Part shown: positions 2,246 through 31,927 of the stretch, one piece after another
How the letters are laid out: every line of letters begins with the position of its first letter
Position numbering within the stretch: the stretch's first letter is position 1
From: a virus
Virus record (IMG/VR): IMGVR_UViG_3300025132_000153
Coordinates: 1-33,214 of that record
Reading direction: 5' to 3' (one strand)
DNA length: 33,214 bases
The notes under the pieces: model-generated
The model's input: the letters and a program-made list of their open reading frames with translations, nothing else
Database searches by the model: none
What the model was told of the DNA's origin: nothing
Program-made: the position numbers and the translations under genes

Positions 2246-4366
2246 ATGCGTATTACAGATGGTGACGCTGATTCCAAATTGATGGATTACGATGCTGACC
2301 AAGACGAAGTAACGATGGATTCAGAAGACGATACCGATTGGCTTGATCTGGCAAAAAACTGTTATGACACTGCGATTGATTATGTGCAGTCTAGCCACAG
2401 GGATGACTGGGAACGATCCATCAACCTGTTCAACAACGAACATCCGTCTGGCTCAAAATACAACTCAGACGCATTTAAAAGACGCTCACGGCTCTTTAGG
2501 CCAAAAATACGATCTTATATAAGGAAAAACGAAGCAACGACTGCACAGGCGTTTTTTAGCACTCAGGACGTTGTTAATATTTCGCCACAAAATGATAACG
2601 ATAAACAGCAATTAGCGTCAGCGGCGATTATTCAAGAATTATTAAACTATCGACTGCAAAAAACGATACCATGGTTTCGCACTGTTATTGGGGCAAGACA
2701 GACAGCGGACATCTATGGCATCACTGCCGCCAAGATTTATTGGAAATATCAGGAAGCAGAAGACGGCGAACAGCCTGTGATGGATGAAATGGATATGCCA
2801 ATCATCAATCAGGACGGCGATCTGGAAGTTGAGCCACGCATGGTTGTGGTGGAAGACAGGCCAGCGATAGAACCTATCGAGCCAGAAAATATTTTGTTTG
2901 ATCCAGCGTCAGATTGGCTAGACCCAGTAAATAGCAGTCCATACCTTATCGTCAGACGGCCAATGTTTGCCATTGATGTTAAGGCGATGATGACAACAGA
3001 TAACCCGAAAAGCGGTCAGCCAGCTTGGAAAGAGTTGGATGATGCAACGCTGAAAATGGGCCAAGAAATGGACGAAACAAACCTTGATGATGCAAGGCAT
3101 TTGTTTGATGGGCCAGACAGAACATCTAGCGATGCGCCAATAGACGATTATGAGGTTCTATTTGTGCATGAGAATTTCGTTAAGCGTGGGGAAACGGATT
3201 ATCAATATTACACACTAGCAACAGCCGCATTGCTTACTGATCCTGTGCCAGTGTCAGAAATCTATCTGCATTGTAAAAACGGTGATCGTCCTGTTGTGGT
3301 TGGCTTTAGTAATGTTGAAGCGTTTAAGCCGTATCCATCTAGCCGTGTTGAGATGCTTGGCAGTCTACAGCAAGAGGCAAACGACTTAGCAAACCTACGC
3401 ATGGACGCATTGAAGTTTAGCCTAACGCCAATGGTTAAGGTGCGGCGTGGCAACAAAGCACTTGTGCCAGCGTTGACGAACAGATCACCAGCTAAAGTTA
3501 TCACAATGGATGATCCAGCCACAGACGTTGTGGAAATGGCTCCACCACCAGTAAACAGTCAGGCTTATGCGGAGCAAGACCGTATCAATGCAGATTTTGA
3601 TGATCTGGCTGGCAATTTTAGCGGTGGTTCTGTTAGCAGTAACAGGCGCATGAATGAAACTGTTGGCGGTATGCACTTGCTATCTGGTGAAAGCAACTTG
3701 CTAACAGAATATGACTTGCGTGTATTCTCAGAAACGTTTGTTGAGCCTGTGTTACGTCAAATGGTGCATCTAGAGCAAGCGTATGAAACGGACGCTGTGA
3801 TCTTAGCAATCGCGGCAGAGAAAGCAGACTTGTTTCAAAAGTATGGCATCAACCAGATTACAGACGATCTATTGCAGGGCGAGTTGACAGTAACGGTTAA
3901 CGTTGGTGTTGGCGGTACTGATCCAATGATGCAGGGCCGCAAGTTCTTGATGGCGATACAATCGTTTCAACAGCTTGTCGCGCCACTTGTGCAAGTTTAT
4001 GGCCCTAACGTCCTAGAAACATCTGGCGTACAAGAAATAGCAAAAGAGTTATTTGGCAAAGCTGGTTATAAAGACGGTCAACGGTTCTTAAACTTTAAAA
4101 ATGAGCAAGGTGATGATCCAAGAATTGCCCAGTTGCAAGCGCAGATAGGACAATTAGGACAGGCATTGAAAGCCACACAAGGCCAGCTACAAGACAAGAA
4201 CCTTGATAGACAAATCAAGATGGCAGAAGCCCAGATGAAGGGCCAGATGGACGTTAAGAAAGCTGAAATGGACGTACAAGGCAAAGCCGCACTTGCAGAG
4301 CAAAACTTTAAACTTGATTTAGCAAGGGCGCAGTTGTTACCGACTAAAAACGTCAATGTGATGTAA
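2246..4366 (+). CDS. Portal protein
   Basis: A 706-aa protein forming the ring at the capsid vertex through which DNA enters and leaves, and to which terminase and then the adaptor dock. The N-terminus is acidic. The segment RSRLFRPKIRSYIRKNE (about residues 80-96) is typical of large P22/SU10-style portals. A proline-rich stretch follows near 205-225 (RPAIEPIEPENILFDP), then a Met/Gln-rich helical C-terminus (about 620-690) predicted to form the barrel or coiled coil. Its size fits podoviral portals rather than the shorter HK97 type. Its stop overlaps the next start as TAATG. Confidence 0.9.
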   Translation: MRITDGDADSKLMDYDADQDEVTMDSEDDTDWLDLAKNCYDTAIDYVQSSHRDDWERSINLFNNEHPSGSKYNSDAFKRRSRLFRPKIRSYIRKNEATTAQAFFSTQDVVNISPQNDNDKQQLASAAIIQELLNYRLQKTIPWFRTVIGARQTADIYGITAAKIYWKYQEAEDGEQPVMDEMDMPIINQDGDLEVEPRMVVVEDRPAIEPIEPENILFDPASDWLDPVNSSPYLIVRRPMFAIDVKAMMTTDNPKSGQPAWKELDDATLKMGQEMDETNLDDARHLFDGPDRTSSDAPIDDYEVLFVHENFVKRGETDYQYYTLATAALLTDPVPVSEIYLHCKNGDRPVVVGFSNVEAFKPYPSSRVEMLGSLQQEANDLANLRMDALKFSLTPMVKVRRGNKALVPALTNRSPAKVITMDDPATDVVEMAPPPVNSQAYAEQDRINADFDDLAGNFSGGSVSSNRRMNETVGGMHLLSGESNLLTEYDLRVFSETFVEPVLRQMVHLEQAYETDAVILAIAAEKADLFQKYGINQITDDLLQGELTVTVNVGVGGTDPMMQGRKFLMAIQSFQQLVAPLVQVYGPNVLETSGVQEIAKELFGKAGYKDGQRFLNFKNEQGDDPRIAQLQAQIGQLGQALKATQGQLQDKNLDRQIKMAEAQMKGQMDVKKAEMDVQGKAALAEQNFKLDLARAQLLPTKNVNVM

Positions 4367-5784
4367 TGGCTGAGTTGCCGCCGCTTGCTCAAGTACAACA
4401 AAGGCAATTAGTGCCTTACAATAATGCAGGGCAAGTGCCAATAGCTGGAGTCAATGGCGGTGGTGAACTTGCTACGTTGGCGCAAGCAATTGGGCAAGGA
4501 GCCACAAGTATAGCGCAAGGCTTTGAACCGTCCACAATGGCTATGCGGTATCAAAACGCAATGAATTACGCACCTATGAGCAACACAGAGCGTTTGCTTA
4601 CAATTATGCCAGCCGCCGATATTATTGGTGGCGGTTTTTTGGCAGGGGCAAAAGTTCCACGAAACGCATTAGCTTCTAATGCTGTTAGGCGTGAGGGTGC
4701 AGAGACATTGCCAGAAGTTGAAGAAATTATAGCTTATCATGGTTCGCCGCATAACTTTGACAAGTTCCAAATGGATAAACTTGGGACAGGCGAAGGGGCG
4801 CAAGCATACGGTCATGGGTTGTATTTCGCTGATTTAGAAAAAGTGGCTGGTGAATATGAAAAAGCATTAACCCCAAGAGATTTAGATTACGAAGAATGGT
4901 TAATGGGGAAATACAAACAAGCGGAGAATGCTCAAGATTATAATAGGTTAGATATGTATGAAAGAGCGTTGTTGCACGATAAACCGTCAGATTTTAGAAG
5001 CATTGCAGATGATGCAGATTATGATGATGATTACAGAGCGTTGGCATCTGAAGTAGCAGATGAGATTGAAGAATATGGGCCTAAGTTTGGGGCAACGTAC
5101 AAAGTATCAATCCAATCAAAACTAGATGATATGTTAGATTATGATGCTCCTATTTCTGAACAAAGTGAAAAAGTGCAAAGAGCGTGGGAGAAATTAGCAA
5201 AAAGTAAAATAGGGAAAAGGGCCAAGCATGTTTTCACTGATATACAAAATGCTGATGGTACGTTTTCCCCTGTTGGAAATGATTTCTTGCGTGTCTTTTC
5301 TGAAGGATTTGAAGACGTAAATAAAATTGATATGACAGATTATAAACAGCATGTTTCAAATTACAGAAAAGCCGCAACCGAATTTTTGAAAAAAGAAGGA
5401 ATAACAGGCATTAATTATTTGGACGGTAATTCAAGGGGCTTGCCTTACGAAATAAAATTGTCCACTAAACAAGGGCCATATGATACAGAAAAAATCACAG
5501 CAAGTTCCAAAAAACAAGCGGAGCAATTAGCCAGCGAGTACAAAGAAAAAGGATTTGGGGCAGAAGTCGTAAAAACTGGCACACATAATTACGTTGTTTT
5601 TGATGAAAACCTGATAAAGATTTTAGCCAAATATGGCATTGTTGGCGGTGTAGGGTTAGCCGCCGCAAACGAATTTAGTTCACCAGCACAAGCAGATAGC
5701 TACCCTAACTATATGCCGCCACAGGCTCCAGAATTAGACGCTAACCCTGTGCAACCAAGAACAATGCGTCCAAATGAGGCATAA
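4366..5784 (+). CDS. PARP-like ADP-ribosyltransferase (ART-PolyVal type)
   Basis: A 472-aa protein with the recognisable phage polyvalent-protein ART signature: AYHGSPHNFDKF (residues 123-134) holds H125, and YGHGLYFAD (148-156) holds Y153, matching the PARP pattern HGS...GKGIYFAD. The third motif, NYVVFDENLIKIL (408-420), corresponds to EYIVYD in PARP1, but the catalytic Glu position is N408, as in many mono-ADP-ribosylating enzymes. Before it sits GINYLDGNSRG (348-358). Small hydrophobic segments occur near residues 85-94 and 424-434. It probably transfers ADP-ribose from NAD+ to a host target. Sitting between the portal and scaffold genes, it may be packaged and injected (inference). The central part, 4850-5640, is visibly AT-richer than its neighbours. 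Confidence 0.8.
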   Translation: MAELPPLAQVQQRQLVPYNNAGQVPIAGVNGGGELATLAQAIGQGATSIAQGFEPSTMAMRYQNAMNYAPMSNTERLLTIMPAADIIGGGFLAGAKVPRNALASNAVRREGAETLPEVEEIIAYHGSPHNFDKFQMDKLGTGEGAQAYGHGLYFADLEKVAGEYEKALTPRDLDYEEWLMGKYKQAENAQDYNRLDMYERALLHDKPSDFRSIADDADYDDDYRALASEVADEIEEYGPKFGATYKVSIQSKLDDMLDYDAPISEQSEKVQRAWEKLAKSKIGKRAKHVFTDIQNADGTFSPVGNDFLRVFSEGFEDVNKIDMTDYKQHVSNYRKAATEFLKKEGITGINYLDGNSRGLPYEIKLSTKQGPYDTEKITASSKKQAEQLASEYKEKGFGAEVVKTGTHNYVVFDENLIKILAKYGIVGGVGLAAANEFSSPAQADSYPNYMPPQAPELDANPVQPRTMRPNEA

Positions 5785-9795: not shown

Positions 9796-11157
9796 ATGCA
9801 AAAAAAAATACAAAATCCAAAATGGTTTTCTGTGCCATTTACTCGCGGTAAAGTGATGCAGATTGGCGGTGATGCCGCGCTGTTTAATCACTGGAAAAAA
9901 ACAGGTGATGTTAGCATTATAAAAGACGGCGCATTAGATGCTCTGGTTATATGCGGCGAAGAAATACCAGCTAATAATTCACCAGCCGAATGGGAAAGAG
10001 TTGTTAAAGCTGACGGCAATATTGTTTTTATAAATTCCGACTCAAACGAAGCGGAGCAAAACGCAAAACATCTCTGGCCTGATATGGTCGTTGCTAAAAA
10101 ACGATACGGCTTATTGGTGATGAGCAAAAATAAAGAACTGGCTGAAAAGCCAAAACCTAAAAATTCCTGTTTGGTTATTCGATATGGCGCATGGGGCGAT
10201 CAGATAATTTGCGCTGGTGTATTTCCTTTACTAAAAGAGCAAGGCCACCACATCACATTGAACTGCCAAACACCACAGGACATTATCAACGCAACCAACC
10301 CTCATGTTGATGAAATGATGGTGCAAGATCGAGATCAGGTTGATAACGATGATCTGCTAGAATACTGGAATGCGATAGCAACAGAATACGACAAGGTAAT
10401 TAATTTAAGCGAAAGCATAGAAGGCGAATTATTATTATCGTCTGATAGCGCAAAATTTTTCTGGCCGCAGAGCGCAAGGCATAAATTGTTTAATGCGAAC
10501 TATATGGAGCGGACACATGATGTTGCTGGCGTTAAACATAATTTTTCTCGATCCGTATTCTATGCAACAAGTGATGAGAGGGCGAAAGCCGAAGAAATAC
10601 GGCAAAGGTTTAACGCGCCGTTAATCTGCTGGGCAGTAGCTGGTTCTGCCGTCCATAAATGGTATCCGCATATGGGCAAGGTGCTGGCAAAGCTGTTAGC
10701 AGAGACAGACGCATATATCATGCTAATGGGCGATGATGAGGCAATCCCATTGCAAGATAGCGCGATTGCAGAAGCACAGGGAATATACGGCGATGTAAGC
10801 CGTATAGCGGCTCAATGCGGTACGTTGCCGATGCGTGGGAGCATGGCGATAGCAGATACGGCAGACGTTGTTGTAGGGCCAGAAACAGGGCTTCTAAACG
10901 CTGTTGGCAGAAGTAAAAACCATAAGGTTGTGTTGGTTAGCCATAGCGGTAAAGAACAGCTAACGAAACACTGGATTAATGCAAAGGAAATACTGCCAGA
11001 GAAAGCCCCATGCTTTCCATGTCACAGGTTGCACTTTTCTTTTGAGCATTGCTCTAAGGACGAAACAACAGGCGCATCACTCTGTAATGCGGTTATTGAG
11101 CCAGAAACAATATTTAAGGCTATAAAAAATGGATTACACAAATCTAGTAGCAAGTAA
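9796..11157 (+). CDS. Glycosyltransferase family 9-like protein with methyltransferase-like N-terminus
   Basis: A 453-aa protein. Residues about 126-445 resemble the heptosyltransferase family GT9: SCLVIRYGAWGDQIICAGVFP (124-144, the LIIRxGAxGD loop), a Rossmann-like half near 277-315 (ICWAVAGSAVHKWYP) and VVVGPETGLLNAVG (358-371), equivalent to the nucleotide-sugar site. Cys406, Cys409, Cys419 and Cys430 may bind metal or form disulfides. Residues 20-110 (DALVICGEEIP...EWERVVKADGNIVFI) look like a decayed class I methyltransferase. It probably glycosylates a virion protein or host surface sugar. SD AGAGGA precedes the ATG, and the gene overlaps the adaptor gene by 29 bases. Confidence 0.75.
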   Translation: MQKKIQNPKWFSVPFTRGKVMQIGGDAALFNHWKKTGDVSIIKDGALDALVICGEEIPANNSPAEWERVVKADGNIVFINSDSNEAEQNAKHLWPDMVVAKKRYGLLVMSKNKELAEKPKPKNSCLVIRYGAWGDQIICAGVFPLLKEQGHHITLNCQTPQDIINATNPHVDEMMVQDRDQVDNDDLLEYWNAIATEYDKVINLSESIEGELLLSSDSAKFFWPQSARHKLFNANYMERTHDVAGVKHNFSRSVFYATSDERAKAEEIRQRFNAPLICWAVAGSAVHKWYPHMGKVLAKLLAETDAYIMLMGDDEAIPLQDSAIAEAQGIYGDVSRIAAQCGTLPMRGSMAIADTADVVVGPETGLLNAVGRSKNHKVVLVSHSGKEQLTKHWINAKEILPEKAPCFPCHRLHFSFEHCSKDETTGASLCNAVIEPETIFKAIKNGLHKSSSK

Positions 11158-11758
11158 AACGACAGACGGCTCTATACAGAACTGGGTGAACAACGACTCC
11201 TTTTCTGCAACGACTGTATTAAGCGAAGCAGAGGATTGGATTTTCCGCAGATTGCGTGTGCGTGAAATGCTGTCAATTGCAACTGGCAATATGGTTGTTG
11301 GGCAAGACTATATAGCAGTGCCTAGCAACTTTGTAGCGTCACGCTCATTCTATTACAGTGGCACAGAAAAGGTTGAGATCAAGCACAGCACACTAGATGC
11401 GATAGAGGCGGCACGATCCTATGACGCAAGTGGAAACGTTAGCCAAGGCAAGCCAACAACGTTTTATGTTGATAGCACAAATGCCTATTTCCCAATTGCG
11501 CCTAACGCAACTTTTCCGTATCGCTGGCGATACTATGCACAGCCCACAGCATTAGGGCCGTCTAATACAACCAATTTTTTGACAAACCAAAGCCCACGCC
11601 TATTGCGGTGCATTTGCTTGGCAATGGCGAATGAATTTTTAAAACAGGATAGCGATAAACTGTATTGGTTACGATTAGCAGAGGGCGAGATAGAAACATT
11701 GCATGTCGCTGACGATGAAGTGCGTTGGGATTTAGACGTTTCAGTTGTGGTAACATGA
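11129..11758 (+). CDS. Head-to-tail adaptor (SU10 adaptor-like)
   Basis: A 209-aa protein that should form the ring between portal and tail nozzle. The opening MDYTNLVASKTTDGSIQNWV, the following AEDWIFRRLRVREM (about residues 34-47) and the C-terminal helix SPRLLRCICLAMANEFLKQD (about 154-173) fit the SU10-type adaptor family. It starts inside the end of the glycosyltransferase gene, 29 bases before its stop, indicating one transcript. This marks the beginning of the tail gene block. Confidence 0.8.
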   Translation: MDYTNLVASKTTDGSIQNWVNNDSFSATTVLSEAEDWIFRRLRVREMLSIATGNMVVGQDYIAVPSNFVASRSFYYSGTEKVEIKHSTLDAIEAARSYDASGNVSQGKPTTFYVDSTNAYFPIAPNATFPYRWRYYAQPTALGPSNTTNFLTNQSPRLLRCICLAMANEFLKQDSDKLYWLRLAEGEIETLHVADDEVRWDLDVSVVVT

Positions 11759-11759
11759 C

Positions 11760-12119
11760 ATGGCCCAACTTCCTGTTGAGCAAGCAGTCCAAGACCTTGA
11801 AAACAAAAAAAGAGACAGGCTCCCAGTCGTTTCAGACTTGGCGGCGCAATCTCTCACAGCGTCAGGCAGTACCGCGACAGATGCCGCTGACATCAACGCA
11901 ACGCTTGTCCTTATCACAACGGCTGGAAGCGGTAGCGGAGTTAAGTTACCGTTGGCATATGAAGGTAGCTTTATTTGCATACGAAATAGTGGTGCAAATA
12001 CCGCTACGGTTTATTGCCAAACTAACGAAACAGTAAACGGTTCAGCAACCACAACAATTGCCGCATCGACTAGCAAAATGTTTTTTGCGCCATCACCAAC
12101 AACTTGGTTTACAATTTAG
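11760..12119 (+). CDS. Virion-associated beta-rich protein (putative, 119 aa)
   Basis: A 119-aa protein with a helical N-terminus (about 1-35) and a beta-rich, Thr/Ala/Gly-rich remainder ending in a pattern seen in small phage tail or head-fibre proteins (GVKLPLAYEGSFICIRNSG, then TVYCQTNETVNGS). It starts directly after the adaptor stop and ends ten bases before the fibre gene, separated by an AGGAG SD. It is likely structural, perhaps a connector for the fibre. No exact family can be named. Confidence 0.6.
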   Translation: MAQLPVEQAVQDLENKKRDRLPVVSDLAAQSLTASGSTATDAADINATLVLITTAGSGSGVKLPLAYEGSFICIRNSGANTATVYCQTNETVNGSATTTIAASTSKMFFAPSPTTWFTI

Positions 12120-27611: not shown

Positions 27612-27672
27612 TTTACGTTTATCTTATATCGTGAATTACCACAGACGTTATTACGAAAGAAAAACTTACATC

Positions 27673-27807
27673 ATGGAAAAAGAAATTAATGAGCGTTGTG
27701 AGTGTGATTGCGACAATTGCGTAGAGTGTAATTGCGATCCTAATGTTTGCCGTTGCAAGGGCCATATCCCTGTTGACAGTGAAAGCAATCTAAATCAGTC
27801 TAAATAA
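27673..27807 (+). CDS. Cysteine-rich metallothionein-like protein (44 aa)
   Basis: A 44-aa protein with eight cysteines in twenty residues: C9, C11, C13, C16, C19, C21, C26, C28, plus H31. Repeated Cys-X-Cys and Cys-X2-Cys spacing with no aromatics is the hallmark of metallothioneins, so it probably binds several zinc or copper ions in the cytoplasm. The SD is weak (AAGAAAAA) and the frame is open upstream, so the start is not certain. Its 3' end overlaps the convergent HTH gene by 13 bases. It could instead be a disulfide-rich or zinc-finger peptide. Confidence 0.6.
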   Translation: MEKEINERCECDCDNCVECNCDPNVCRCKGHIPVDSESNLNQSK

Positions 27808-27890
27808 GGCCTTACTAATTTGTCAAATGTAGCAACGTCCATATCACAGTATTTTGCGGCACTTTTTAACTTAATCCAGCGTGGTTGCAT
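27795..27890 (-). CDS. Minimal helix-turn-helix protein (31 aa)
   Basis: A 31-aa minus-strand frame starting at 27888-27890 with SD AGGA eight bases upstream. MQPRWIKLKSAAKYCDMDVA, then TFDKLVRPYLD, matches the first half of AlpA/excisionase-type or MerR-like HTH modules (W..L..AA.Y...s..TF...v). It stops before the usual wing. It is probably the last gene of the leftward early operon. It may be a true small DNA-binding peptide or a remnant. Confidence 0.5.
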   Translation of the reverse strand: MQPRWIKLKSAAKYCDMDVATFDKLVRPYLD

Positions 27891-29107: not shown

Positions 29108-29803
29108 TCATTCTGCCGCCTGTGCTGGGATTTGAAATTCTTGTGCAAGTTCTTTAAATTTTGCCACAAATTGCTTTTTGTCATCGTTTGACAAACCAGC
29201 AAATTCGCCAGAACCTTTGATAGCTTCTTTATTACTTATTAATGCTTCAAGATTTTGCGCTTGCGACAACTGAGTGCATAGCGTGTCTAATACAGAAATA
29301 GGTTTTTGCTCTAATTGTGCCTTAACGGTTTTTGCCTCTGGCGTTGGTTCTGGTTCTTTTATGGCATCGTCTGATCTGCGCTGTGCCGCTTCTGCTTCAC
29401 TATCAGTTAATGCAATTTCACTTTCAGAATAGAAAAACCCTTGTAAATTTAACGCCTCTAAAATTGCGCGATCTACGGCTCTTTTATATGCCATCATAGC
29501 TGGGTAAGCATTTTTGTTATTTGCTGGGTCTGCCTCTGCGACAGAGCAATAGGTTTGCTTGTCTTTAGTTTCCACCATAACAAAACAAATGCTTTTGTTA
29601 CGTTCTGCAAAAAAATCTAACTTAACACTTTCTGGCACGACTCTAATTTGCTGTAAGCCAGCAATCTGTTTTAAATATTTGTGTTTGACTATGTTCATGC
29701 CGCTTTGTTTGTGGTTCCAAGTGGCCTCTCTAATATCAACGCTGTCAGGCAAATATTGTTGTAGCCGCGCATCTGCACTGCTTAATGGTGTGTTTTTAGC
29801 CAT
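29108..29803 (-). CDS. Single-strand annealing protein (Rad52/Erf-like recombinase, putative)
   Basis: A 231-aa protein. The N-terminal core includes WNHKQSGMNIVKHKYLKQIA (about 29-48), a beta segment SICFVMVETKDKQTYCSVAEAD (about 71-92), then NAYPAMMAYKRAVDRAILEAL (about 98-118) and FFYSESE. The YPAMMAYKRAxDRxxL...YSExE pattern is one I recall from phage single-strand annealing proteins. The C-terminal part is a Pro/Glu linker plus a helical domain. It works with the exonuclease upstream, overlapping it by eight bases, to repair or circularise phage DNA. Confidence 0.7.
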   Translation of the reverse strand: MAKNTPLSSADARLQQYLPDSVDIREATWNHKQSGMNIVKHKYLKQIAGLQQIRVVPESVKLDFFAERNKSICFVMVETKDKQTYCSVAEADPANNKNAYPAMMAYKRAVDRAILEALNLQGFFYSESEIALTDSEAEAAQRRSDDAIKEPEPTPEAKTVKAQLEQKPISVLDTLCTQLSQAQNLEALISNKEAIKGSGEFAGLSNDDKKQFVAKFKELAQEFQIPAQAAE

Positions 29804-30722
29804 GCCGCACCTTTGCTTTCTTTTCCTTAAACATTATGTGACCAGCACGATTGCGCTCCATCCAAAGGGTTGCACAGCCAGCCCTTTGCGCGGTTTCTGG
29901 CATAAATGCTTTTGCATTTTTTTTCACAATTTCATGCGCTGTGTGGTCAATTTTTGTTTTTAAATATTCCTCACGAAAAACAGACCATTCAATAGCAGTG
30001 TTTGATCCAAAATTGTCCTCATTGGATTCATCCCAATCTAGGATTTCTGTGGCCGCAACTTTTTGCTTGGTGATTTCTTCTGCCGCTGTGTGCGGTGGCT
30101 CAATATCATTTATTACAAAATGAACATATTGTTGAAGCTCTTTGAATATTTCCATTTGCCGTAATGGTTGGGCTTCAATTTCTATTTTATCCCAATATGA
30201 ATTTCCGTATATTACAGACAATTCAGATCGTTTGACTTCAACGCCTAACGCTGATGATGCGGCAAACATTTGCATTTGCATTTGTGGCTCATAACGCTCA
30301 ATGAACTTGTTGCGGTTAAAGCCGCCAGAATAGTTGTTAATGTTAGTATGCTTGCAGTCTACCAGCACGATTTCAGCGGTTGTAGGATCAGCATAAACCC
30401 TGTCAGGGTGCGTGTTTAACCAAGGATAGTTACGGTGCTGAAACTCAATTTCTGGCTTATCCCTCCAGATTTTTTTCCATTGCGTCATGTCAGCAAATTC
30501 AATGCCTGTTTGTTTTTCATACCAACTTGCATTAAACTCTTCTGTAAACGATCCTAATTGTACCGCCAATTTATTTGACAAATCCTCTGGCTGTTGACGG
30601 CCTGTGTCTACTAACCATTCTTGGTACATTCCATTGTCTTTGTGGTAATGTATTGCCGCATATTTTGTCGCGCCTACCGTAAAATTTTTAGGCGTTTCAA
30701 TGCGCTCAAAAGGGCCAAGCAT
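29796..30722 (-). CDS. Recombination exonuclease (YqaJ/lambda-exo type)
   Basis: A 308-aa protein with the PD-(D/E)XK exonuclease layout: E61/E62 in GSFTEEFNASWYEKQTG (about 58-74), D107 in NTHPDRVYAD, and the core D122-C-K124 in EIVLVDCKHTN, where Asp replaces the more usual Glu of ExK. A Gln/Met-rich helix (YEPQMQMQMFAAS, about 144-156) matches the conserved Q of YqaJ enzymes. It would resect 5' ends to give single strands for the annealing protein. The start is the ATG in the TGATG junction; a GTG three bases upstream is possible. Confidence 0.8.
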   Translation of the reverse strand: MLGPFERIETPKNFTVGATKYAAIHYHKDNGMYQEWLVDTGRQQPEDLSNKLAVQLGSFTEEFNASWYEKQTGIEFADMTQWKKIWRDKPEIEFQHRNYPWLNTHPDRVYADPTTAEIVLVDCKHTNINNYSGGFNRNKFIERYEPQMQMQMFAASSALGVEVKRSELSVIYGNSYWDKIEIEAQPLRQMEIFKELQQYVHFVINDIEPPHTAAEEITKQKVAATEILDWDESNEDNFGSNTAIEWSVFREEYLKTKIDHTAHEIVKKNAKAFMPETAQRAGCATLWMERNRAGHIMFKEKKAKVRHG

Positions 30723-30904
30723 CACAGATACCCTTTTAGCTGTAGGTATCGAGTGCTTTCTTTATCCATGCCAACTTGTTTTAATTTGTGAGCAACACAG
30801 TGAGCGTCATTCCAGCTTTCATAACTGCCGTTGTTTTTGTGCAGTTGGTCTAAATCCGCTTTATCATTGCCAGCTAACCAAGCATCTGTAAGTGTTTTTT
30901 GCAT
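30722..30904 (-). CDS. Small hypothetical protein heading the recombination operon (60 aa)
   Basis: A 60-aa charged, helical protein (AGNDKADLDQLHKNNGSYES). The SD TTTGGAGT precedes the ATG and forms one arm of an inverted repeat with 30935-30942. It is the first gene after the internal leftward promoter and its stop overlaps the exonuclease start. Family unknown. Confidence 0.65.
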   Translation of the reverse strand: MQKTLTDAWLAGNDKADLDQLHKNNGSYESWNDAHCVAHKLKQVGMDKESTRYLQLKGYL

Positions 30905-30909
30905 AAAAA

Positions 30910-30942
30910 GACTCCAAAAATTGATATATACACATTGGAGTC
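30910..30942 (-). promoter_or_regulatory. Inverted repeat able to mask the SD of the 60-aa gene
   Basis: GACTCCAA (30910-30917) and TTGGAGTC (30935-30942) are perfect 8-bp inverted arms. In a leftward transcript that begins upstream, the distal arm would pair with the SD TTGGAGTC and hide it. A transcript from the internal promoter should begin near 30932 and lack most of the first arm. Confidence 0.6.
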
Positions 30943-30967
30943 TAAATTACATGATGTAATTTTGCAA
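30939..30967 (-). promoter_or_regulatory. Leftward early promoter with operator in spacer (PL-like)
   Basis: On the minus strand TTGCAA (30962-30967) is followed after 17 bases by TAGACT (30939-30944), a moderate sigma70 match. The spacer consists of the palindromic operator, so binding there should shut the promoter. It would drive the 60-aa gene, exonuclease, annealing protein and ssb. Confidence 0.55.
30944..30962. promoter_or_regulatory. Operator OL, perfect 19-bp palindrome
   Basis: AAATTACATGATGTAATTT is a perfect inverted repeat with 9-bp arms around a central G. Related sites recur at 31314-31332, 31358-31372 and 31396-31410, around the divergent repressor-like genes, which makes it a probable binding site for one of them. 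Confidence 0.75.
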
Positions 30968-30986
30968 ACAAAATAATAATTACAGA

Positions 30987-31109
30987 TCAGTTTTTTTCTT
31001 TAAAAAAAAGGTCGATTTCTCTTTCGATAATAGCTAAACGCTCTAATGTCCAATTATCAGGAGCGTCATTTTTGAGGTCAGCTATAGCGTTTTTGAGATT
31101 TTCAGACAT
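30987..31109 (-). CDS. Small acidic helical protein (40 aa)
   Basis: A 40-aa frame starting at 31107-31109 with SD AAGGAA six bases upstream. The product is mostly charged helix (SENLKNAIADLKNDAPDN; LERLAIIEREIDLFF). It follows the truncated XRE gene after 25 bases, so both probably share a leftward transcript. Unrecognised; perhaps an antirepressor-like or adaptor peptide, but nothing shows this. Confidence 0.55.
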   Translation of the reverse strand: MSENLKNAIADLKNDAPDNWTLERLAIIEREIDLFFKEKN

Positions 31110-31134
31110 GCAATATTCCTTTCCGAATCATAGA

Positions 31135-31290
31135 TTACGACAGGAAATAAAAATGGTTTGGCACAAGTGAAATTTCTGCCGCTACTTGCGTTTGGGATAA
31201 ATCGTGAGTACGCCGCAATCTATATAAGCGAACACCTGTTGATTTATTTATCTCTTGAATCTGTTGAGTTATCTGGTCTTTGGTTAGCAT
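31135..31290 (-). CDS. Truncated XRE/CI-like repressor (51 aa)
   Basis: A 51-aa protein with an excellent SD (AGAGGGGG) before ATG 31288-31290. Residues 20-40 (VRLYRLRRTHDLSQTQVAAEI) are the first two helices of an XRE helix-turn-helix, and SLVPNHFYFLS (41-51) aligns with the recognition helix. The protein stops there, lacking the last helices and any dimerisation or cleavage domain of a normal CI repressor. It lies where lambda carries cI, between the leftward and rightward operators. It may be a decayed repressor or a minimal DNA-binding protein. Confidence 0.6.
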   Translation of the reverse strand: MLTKDQITQQIQEINKSTGVRLYRLRRTHDLSQTQVAAEISLVPNHFYFLS

Positions 31291-31313
31291 TTTGCCCCCT
31301 CTTGATTCTGCTT

Positions 31314-31332
31314 AAATTACTTTCTGTAATTT
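31314..31332. promoter_or_regulatory. Operator OR1, variant palindrome
   Basis: AAATTACTTTCTGTAATTT keeps both 7-base arms (AAATTAC/GTAATTT) of OL with a different five-base centre. It lies between the divergent XRE and YdaS-like genes, 23 bases upstream of the XRE start, where bound protein would block leftward transcription. Confidence 0.7.
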
Positions 31333-31348
31333 GTAAATAAAAAAATGC

Positions 31349-31375
31349 TTGGCAAATGTTCCGTGATGTAATAAT
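31349..31375 (+). promoter_or_regulatory. Rightward early promoter, probably giving a leaderless transcript
   Basis: TTGGCA (31349-31354) is a good -35. AATAAT (31370-31375) is a good -10 but the spacer is short (15); TAATCA (31372-31377) gives 17. Either predicts a start at about 31382-31384, on the ATG itself. No SD precedes that ATG, as with the lambda cI message from PRM. The OR2 site overlaps the promoter. Confidence 0.45.
31358..31372. promoter_or_regulatory. Operator OR2, degenerate site in the rightward promoter
   Basis: GTTCCGTGATGTAAT matches the 15-base core ATTACATGATGTAAT at 12 positions, with one intact half-site (TGATGTAAT). It lies between the -35 and -10 of the rightward promoter. 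Its weaker match suggests lower affinity than OL. Confidence 0.55.
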
Positions 31376-31383
31376 CAATATGT

Positions 31384-31614
31384 ATGGAATCATTAAATAC
31401 ATCATGTAATAATGGGCTGGCTAATAAGGTGGTTAAGGAGTTAGGCGGCGTAACTGCGCTGGCAAAACTTATGTCTTTAAGTCAGTCAGCGGTTAGTCAT
31501 TGGCTGGTTCGCGGTGTTCCAAAAAATTACATGGTGAGAAACAAGTTAGCAGAATTATTGGAAAAAAAATTAGTTAATCCTGACCGTTTAATTAAGGAAT
31601 TGCGCGATGGCTAA
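31384..31614 (+). CDS. YdaS/Cro-like transcriptional regulator (76 aa)
   Basis: A 76-aa HTH protein: ANKVVKELGGVTALAKLMSL (about 13-32), then SQSAVSHWLVRGVPKNY (33-49) fits YdaS/Cro-type regulators (LGG...LAK.L..SQSAVSxWxxRGVP). It should bind the palindromes around its own promoter and the leftward one. There is no SD before the ATG. One operator copy (31396-31410) lies inside its first codons. It heads the rightward early operon and overlaps the next gene by eight bases. Confidence 0.75.
   Translation: MESLNTSCNNGLANKVVKELGGVTALAKLMSLSQSAVSHWLVRGVPKNYMVRNKLAELLEKKLVNPDRLIKELRDG
31396..31410. promoter_or_regulatory. Operator OR3 inside the start of the regulator gene
   Basis: AATACATCATGTAAT matches the 15-base core (minus-strand reading) with one mismatch. 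It is just downstream of the predicted transcription start and overlaps codons 5-9 of the YdaS-like gene, a typical position for autorepression by roadblock. Confidence 0.65.
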
Positions 31615-31927
31615 AAGCAAAGCGGCGCGGCTTGGATATGCTGACGAAATGAAAGTGCGTGACCAGCTTATTGCATTTGGCATAGATGCGGTTCGGGTAG
31701 ATCGTAGGTTGGGCCAATTAGGTGCAGACCAATCTTGTGATTTGCTTTTGAAATATCCCAATGGTCAGGAAAAGCCTCTTGAGCAAAAGCGAGTCAAAGG
31801 CGGTTTTAAGACTATTAGAAAATGGTTGGACGGTGCGCCGTCTGGTGCGTTGCTGACGGTGACTGAACCCAACAAGCCGACATTGATTATATCAACCTTA
31901 GATACGCATGGGGATTTGATAAAATGA
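31607..31927 (+). CDS. PD-(D/E)XK nuclease-like protein (106 aa)
   Basis: A 106-aa protein with E14 (GYADEMKVRDQL), R30-V-D, D45 (SCDLLLKYPNG) and E59-Q-K61 (LEQKRVKGGF), then a C-terminal FKTIRKWLDG helix and beta strands. This layout matches a phage Holliday-junction-resolvase-like family of the PD-(D/E)XK fold. It is distinct in sequence from the nuclease at 25637. In the rightward early operon it may act in replication-linked recombination. SD AAGGAA lies upstream; its stop overlaps the next start. Confidence 0.65.
   Translation: MAKSKAARLGYADEMKVRDQLIAFGIDAVRVDRRLGQLGADQSCDLLLKYPNGQEKPLEQKRVKGGFKTIRKWLDGAPSGALLTVTEPNKPTLIISTLDTHGDLIK

Follow-up and report, generated by a model that had tools for sequence, protein, structure and literature searches.

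The DNA analysed here (the window, a stretch of 33,214 nucleotides from a virus) in all likelihood carries what is left of a lambda-type immunity region: the repressor and the integrase have been deleted and the Cro circuit kept, which would make the phage a naturally virulent derivative. Compared with its close temperate relatives the window has lost both functions, with remnants left in place, and the loss is evidenced by two stubs. The temperate ancestor is proposed to have encoded a small XRE repressor and a divergent Cro of the YdaS/P22 type, both using common TTAC-N5-GTAA operators at three promoters, namely the leftward promoter (PL) of the recombination operon and those of the repressor and cro genes. 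The repressor would then have been lost to one deletion and the integrase to another. Given these two deletions the phage is very probably obligately lytic, and the remaining Cro protein and operators would most likely keep early transcription at PL and PR in check.

Operators and promoters of the control region

The leftward recombination operon starts with a 60-aa ORF (30722–30904, minus strand; called as an ORF, its flanking DNA aligning with relatives) and includes a gene for a YqaJ/RecE-like exonuclease (29799–30725, minus strand; PF09588 at 5e-8, above the cut-off, and phrog_434). On the other side of PL lie a conserved 40-aa ORF (30987–31109, minus strand; its translation is 90% identical in contig L034), an XRE repressor relic, the YdaS/P22-Cro-like gene and, 3' of the latter, a conserved 106-aa ORF (31607–31927, plus strand). 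The window also carries a head-tail portal of the phrog_1216 type. A 472-aa ORF at 4366–5784, with only weak PHROG matches, is missing from the otherwise collinear related contig G002.

The four related palindromes reported in the initial annotation are confirmed by sequence comparison as a real, conserved set of putative operators, which share the motif TTAC-N5-GTAA (positions of operators and junctions are given without strand). The OL operator, AAATTACATGATGTAATTT at 30944–30962, is perfectly symmetric around an unpaired central G, and its core TTACATGATGTAA (30947–30959) is centred in the PL spacer. The remaining three sites, located by motif search, are TTACTTTCTGTAA at 31317–31329 in the putative repressor promoter, TTCCGTGATGTAA at 31359–31371 in the putative cro promoter, and ATACATCATGTAA at 31397–31409 within the start of the cro-like ORF. 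A half-degenerate fifth candidate, TTACGACAGGAAA (31135–31147), precedes the 40-aa ORF and adjoins a -10-like TATGAT. Between 30901 and 31450 there are five sites that depart from the half-sites at no more than one position, against 0.30 expected (P ~0.0002). Across the whole window the loose motif occurs 25 times against 25.6 expected, i.e. there is no genome-wide enrichment, and the motif is consequently local to the control region. Taken singly, AAATTACATGATGTAATTT is weak evidence, given that a perfect palindrome as long turns up somewhere in 18 of 60 dinucleotide-shuffled versions of the whole window; shuffling the control region alone gave a palindrome of this length in 25 of 2000 cases. 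A lone one-mismatch copy, TTACATCATGGAA, is found at 27666–27678 near the junction of the integrase deletion; it is absent from G002 and possibly due to chance.

The putative PL (30939–30967, minus strand) consists of a -35 hexamer TTGCAA (30962–30967), a 17-bp spacer and a -10 hexamer TAGACT (30939–30944), matches the consensus at 8 of 12 positions and has identical geometry in all lineages. At the PL of every lineage, as well as at a further promoter found in the close relatives (see below), the hexamers have the form TTGnnn and TAnnnT, with 8–9 of 12 consensus matches, and the 17 bp between them carry the 13-bp core in the middle (2+13+2); the background for this score is that ~1% of positions in the control region reach at least 8. 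The putative repressor promoter combines a -35 TTTACA (31332–31337) with a weak -10 TAAGCA (31309–31314) and has TTACTTTCTGTAA inside it, and the putative cro promoter, read by eye as TTGGCA (31349–31354) and AATAAT (31370–31375), likewise contains TTCCGTGATGTAA. A generic promoter scan gave nothing above shuffle level. As the operators lie inside the promoters, and centrally in the spacer at PL, a bound dimer would block RNA polymerase. An inverted repeat, AGACTCCAA / TTGGAGTCT, is present at 30911–30944 between the leftward -10 and the ribosome-binding site; its upstream arm overlaps the -10 and may thus not be transcribed. The pair TAGACTCCA ... TTTTTGGAG is common to the leftward promoter of the window and the further operator-bearing promoter of the relatives.

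Conservation of the operators in related contigs

The control region is present in eight other contigs. Four of these (L004, L006, L007 and L008) are close relatives with core proteins 90–99% identical to those of the window (exonuclease 90–96%, portal 96–99% where present), and four (L019, L038, L039 and L040) form a more distant sister lineage with a portal 77–80% identical. L004 and L006 look identical in the control region, as do L007 and L008. Independent sampling is small, with roughly two different temperate sequences and two different lineages lacking the repressor. An additional contig, L005, stops before the operators.

The check proposed alongside the original description, a search for the same palindrome at homologous promoters, found the motif in 8/8 related contigs, and this conservation provides the strongest support for the palindromes as putative operators. 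In all four close relatives the PL site occupies the equivalent position and reads TTACTTCAAGTAA where the window has TTACATGATGTAA; positions 5 and 9 are altered together, so that symmetry is preserved in both half-sites. The same contigs carry TTACTTTTTGTAA before the repressor gene and ACACTTATTGTAA before cro, at the places of TTACTTTCTGTAA and TTCCGTGATGTAA, respectively. In relatives the fifth candidate site reads TTACNNNNNGAAA, and ATACATCATGTAA is without counterpart. The four close relatives (4/4) also share a further operator copy (TTACTAAAAGTAA or TTACTTCTAGTAA) at another promoter, ~4–5 kb to the cro side, followed by a TAGACTCCA leader as at PL; the contig of the window stops short of this promoter. 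In the sister lineage the recombination operon and cro are directly divergent with one TTAC-N5-GTAA operator in common, and in L038–L040 a second site, with one mismatch, also lies between these divergent promoters. A reading of the palindromes as chance features or sites for a host regulator, for which the lack of genome-wide enrichment and the long palindromes of the whole-window shuffles could be cited, is very unlikely in the face of the local enrichment, the conserved position with symmetric substitution, the fixed promoter geometry and the additional operator that the relatives carry at a different promoter.

Searches beyond this group were less productive. Megablast against isolated phages gave no matches, and a portal search of bacterial genomes returned only the L019 phage contig in a Halobacteriovorax MAG and no prophage. 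The whole phage contig concerned (PBIO01000021.1, 34,887 bp; L019/L031) is binned in that MAG, albeit binning does not prove the host. Three candidates were set aside. Contig L009, picked up with the Cro protein, is unrelated and represents a chance peptide match. Phage C72C1 (TerL 52%) resembles the window in layout, with a single HTH gene and an annotation that lacks an integrase, but the HTH protein seems dissimilar, and a TTAC-N5-GTAA site could not be clearly made out. Pelagibacter phage Hodr gave a distant exonuclease match, and its annotation shows no obvious common control region.

Truncation of the repressor gene

The divergent arrangement of XRE-like and cro-like genes described initially is present as a layout; the XRE gene itself (31135–31290, minus strand), however, is a relic of 51 codons, which matches the first 46 residues of an intact 99-aa protein and then runs into FYFLS and a stop. 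Over these 46 residues, 24 positions are identical in all three sequences compared. The stub ends inside the helix-turn-helix and is missing the recognition helix; it falls below all Pfam cut-offs, whereas the intact protein of L006 exceeds three Pfam HTH cut-offs. The four close relatives have the intact 99-aa repressor followed by a 258–267-aa ORF and then by the 40-aa ORF. Alignment and junction sequences place the junction of a ~1.0-kb deletion at 31148–31153 in the window, and the missing DNA extends from the recognition helix as far as the region before the 40-aa ORF, i.e. the rest of the repressor and the 267-aa ORF. The latter (3712–4515 in L006, 3' of the repressor) has no Pfam or PADLOC match and is a candidate lysogeny-related gene. 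OL and the nearest OR site are 1,354 bp apart in L006, as compared to the ~470-bp layout of the window. Thus, the compact arrangement that had been described as miniature is indeed there, but it is the product of the 1.0-kb deletion. The control regions of L019, L038, L039 and L040 contain no repressor gene. Measured against a functional CI/Cro region of the lambda type, the window has the operators and lacks an intact repressor.

Deletion of the integrase

In agreement with the earlier observation that no integrase was visible, neither a tyrosine integrase (PF00589) nor a serine recombinase (PF00239) was found in the window. A tyrosine integrase is present in 4/4 close relatives and went undetected in all repressor-less contigs (the window, L019, L038, L039 and L040, of which L039 and L040 are partial, which bears on the missing integrase). 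In G002 the integrase and a small 75-aa upstream gene, which has no Pfam match and may be an excisionase by position only, form the distal end of the leftward operon. The alignment of the window with G002 leaps from 10454 to 11845 in G002, to sequence past the integrase, and the resulting 1.39-kb deletion joins at ~27805–27811 through a GGCC microhomology. A 31-codon stub of the small gene upstream of the integrase is retained at 27795–27890 (minus strand), as seen from the junction sequences and the stub translation. The absence of the integrase is consequently the result of a second deletion; the part of G002 that corresponds to the gap between the two ends of the window contig contains no integrase.

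Both deletions rest on a single metagenome contig, and k-mers spanning the two junctions occur in no other viral contig. An assembly artefact, i.e. a temperate phage whose repressor and integrase segments were left out by the assembler, would account for these junctions being confined to one contig from a metagenome assembly. It would nevertheless need two separate skips, both falling exactly at lysogeny genes; each junction is clean and has a short microhomology, and the sister lineage is likewise without both functions. We consider such an artefact improbable. Even less probable is that the region functions as a miniature lambda-like switch in which both HTH proteins are active. The divergent gene order and the operators at both promoters would fit it, whereas the XRE protein stops inside the HTH, without the recognition helix found in the intact relatives, and the integrase is deleted. 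In combination, the XRE relic, the deletion-made compactness and the deleted integrase reveal that the window is not a working miniature lambda switch. Of the lambda OL/OR logic initially proposed, the operators and a lambda-like ancestry (OL at the recombination operon, OR sites between repressor and cro) find support in the relatives, and at most the Cro half would operate.

A possible series from temperate to lytic forms

The virulent derivative preferred here belongs to a group that might tentatively be arranged as a series, from an intact region (OL, two OR sites and the further operator-bearing promoter) via the recently broken one of the window to a collapsed, repressor-free Cro circuit. 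In the collapsed form, on the same tentative reading, one or two operators would lie between divergent early promoters, and in an obligately lytic phage the timing of early genes would be left to Cro on its own. A single marine-type phage group would contain such a natural series, leading from temperate forms to apparently lytic ones. If Cro and its operators outlast the repressor, lytic phages of this kind should still be silenced in cells lysogenic for a related temperate phage with a repressor that recognises these operators. The window also serves as a warning that what looks like a compact "mini-switch" in a phage from a metagenome can be the scar of a deletion.

The likeness to lambda and P22 (CI or c2, Cro, OL, OR) lies in the divergent repressor and cro genes, the palindromic, mutually related operators of PL and of the repressor and cro promoters and, in the relatives of the window, a leftward operon with the integrase at its far end. 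Conversely, the window has a repressor stub, a deleted integrase, a single PL operator and a 13-bp core, and even the intact repressor of the relatives is just 99 aa long, without a C-terminal protease-type domain. Loss of lysogeny by this route has a precedent in mycobacteriophage D29 (Cluster A), which is obligately lytic via a repressor-gene deletion among otherwise temperate phages (PMC6550527), but phage and repressor are unrelated to those described here, and Cluster A uses a stoperator system rather than Cro/OL/OR. The kind of event is hence already known from D29, and the interesting part is the intact, broken and collapsed forms within one phage group.

The Cro-like protein

The 76-aa YdaS/P22-Cro-like protein (31384–31614, plus strand) matches phrog_8008 at 1.4e-9 and, by profile, solved Cro proteins (PDB 3bd1 at 5e-6, PDB 1rzs at 0.007). 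Against Pfam it scores 28.6 bits for PF15943 (cut-off 30) and 25.8 bits for PF14549 (cut-off 30.2), below both thresholds but with significant E-values of ~1e-6 to 1e-5, which points to a divergent relative of the YdaS/P22 Cro family. The predicted structure is an all-helical HTH (pLDDT 85). In a fold search, Xfaso 1 Cro (3bd1) ranks first with TM-scores of 0.62/0.71, but the Foldseek E-value is just 0.11 and the identity 28%; P22 Cro (1rzs) is the other profile-similar protein. Relative to the close relatives, Cro is 55% and the repressor stub 47% identical, as compared to 90–96% for the flanking exonuclease and 92–93% for the 106-aa ORF. The immunity allele of the window thus differs from theirs, which fits its changed operator. 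Querying with the truncated repressor yielded neither an intact copy nor a relative with the same allele.

The Cro-like protein is probably the only remaining user of the sites, and the best indirect evidence for its using them is that the sister lineage has kept the operator without a repressor. A YdaS-type protein likewise occupies the Cro position in prophage CP-933P of E. coli O157:H7 (PaaR2/YdaS/YdaT), where YdaS plays the part of Cro at palindromes that cover both promoters and a PL-like promoter also occurs (PMC8630535). CP-933P differs in its intact CI analogue and in having four 18-bp operator repeats with the half-site GTTTAGTAA (PMC8630535), and no YdaT (CII-like) gene was identified in the window. 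Finally, the cro-like gene is without a clear ribosome-binding site in both the window (31370–31384) and L019 (4786–4799), and its ATG follows the putative -10 by a few bases, which suggests a leaderless or nearly leaderless cro mRNA.
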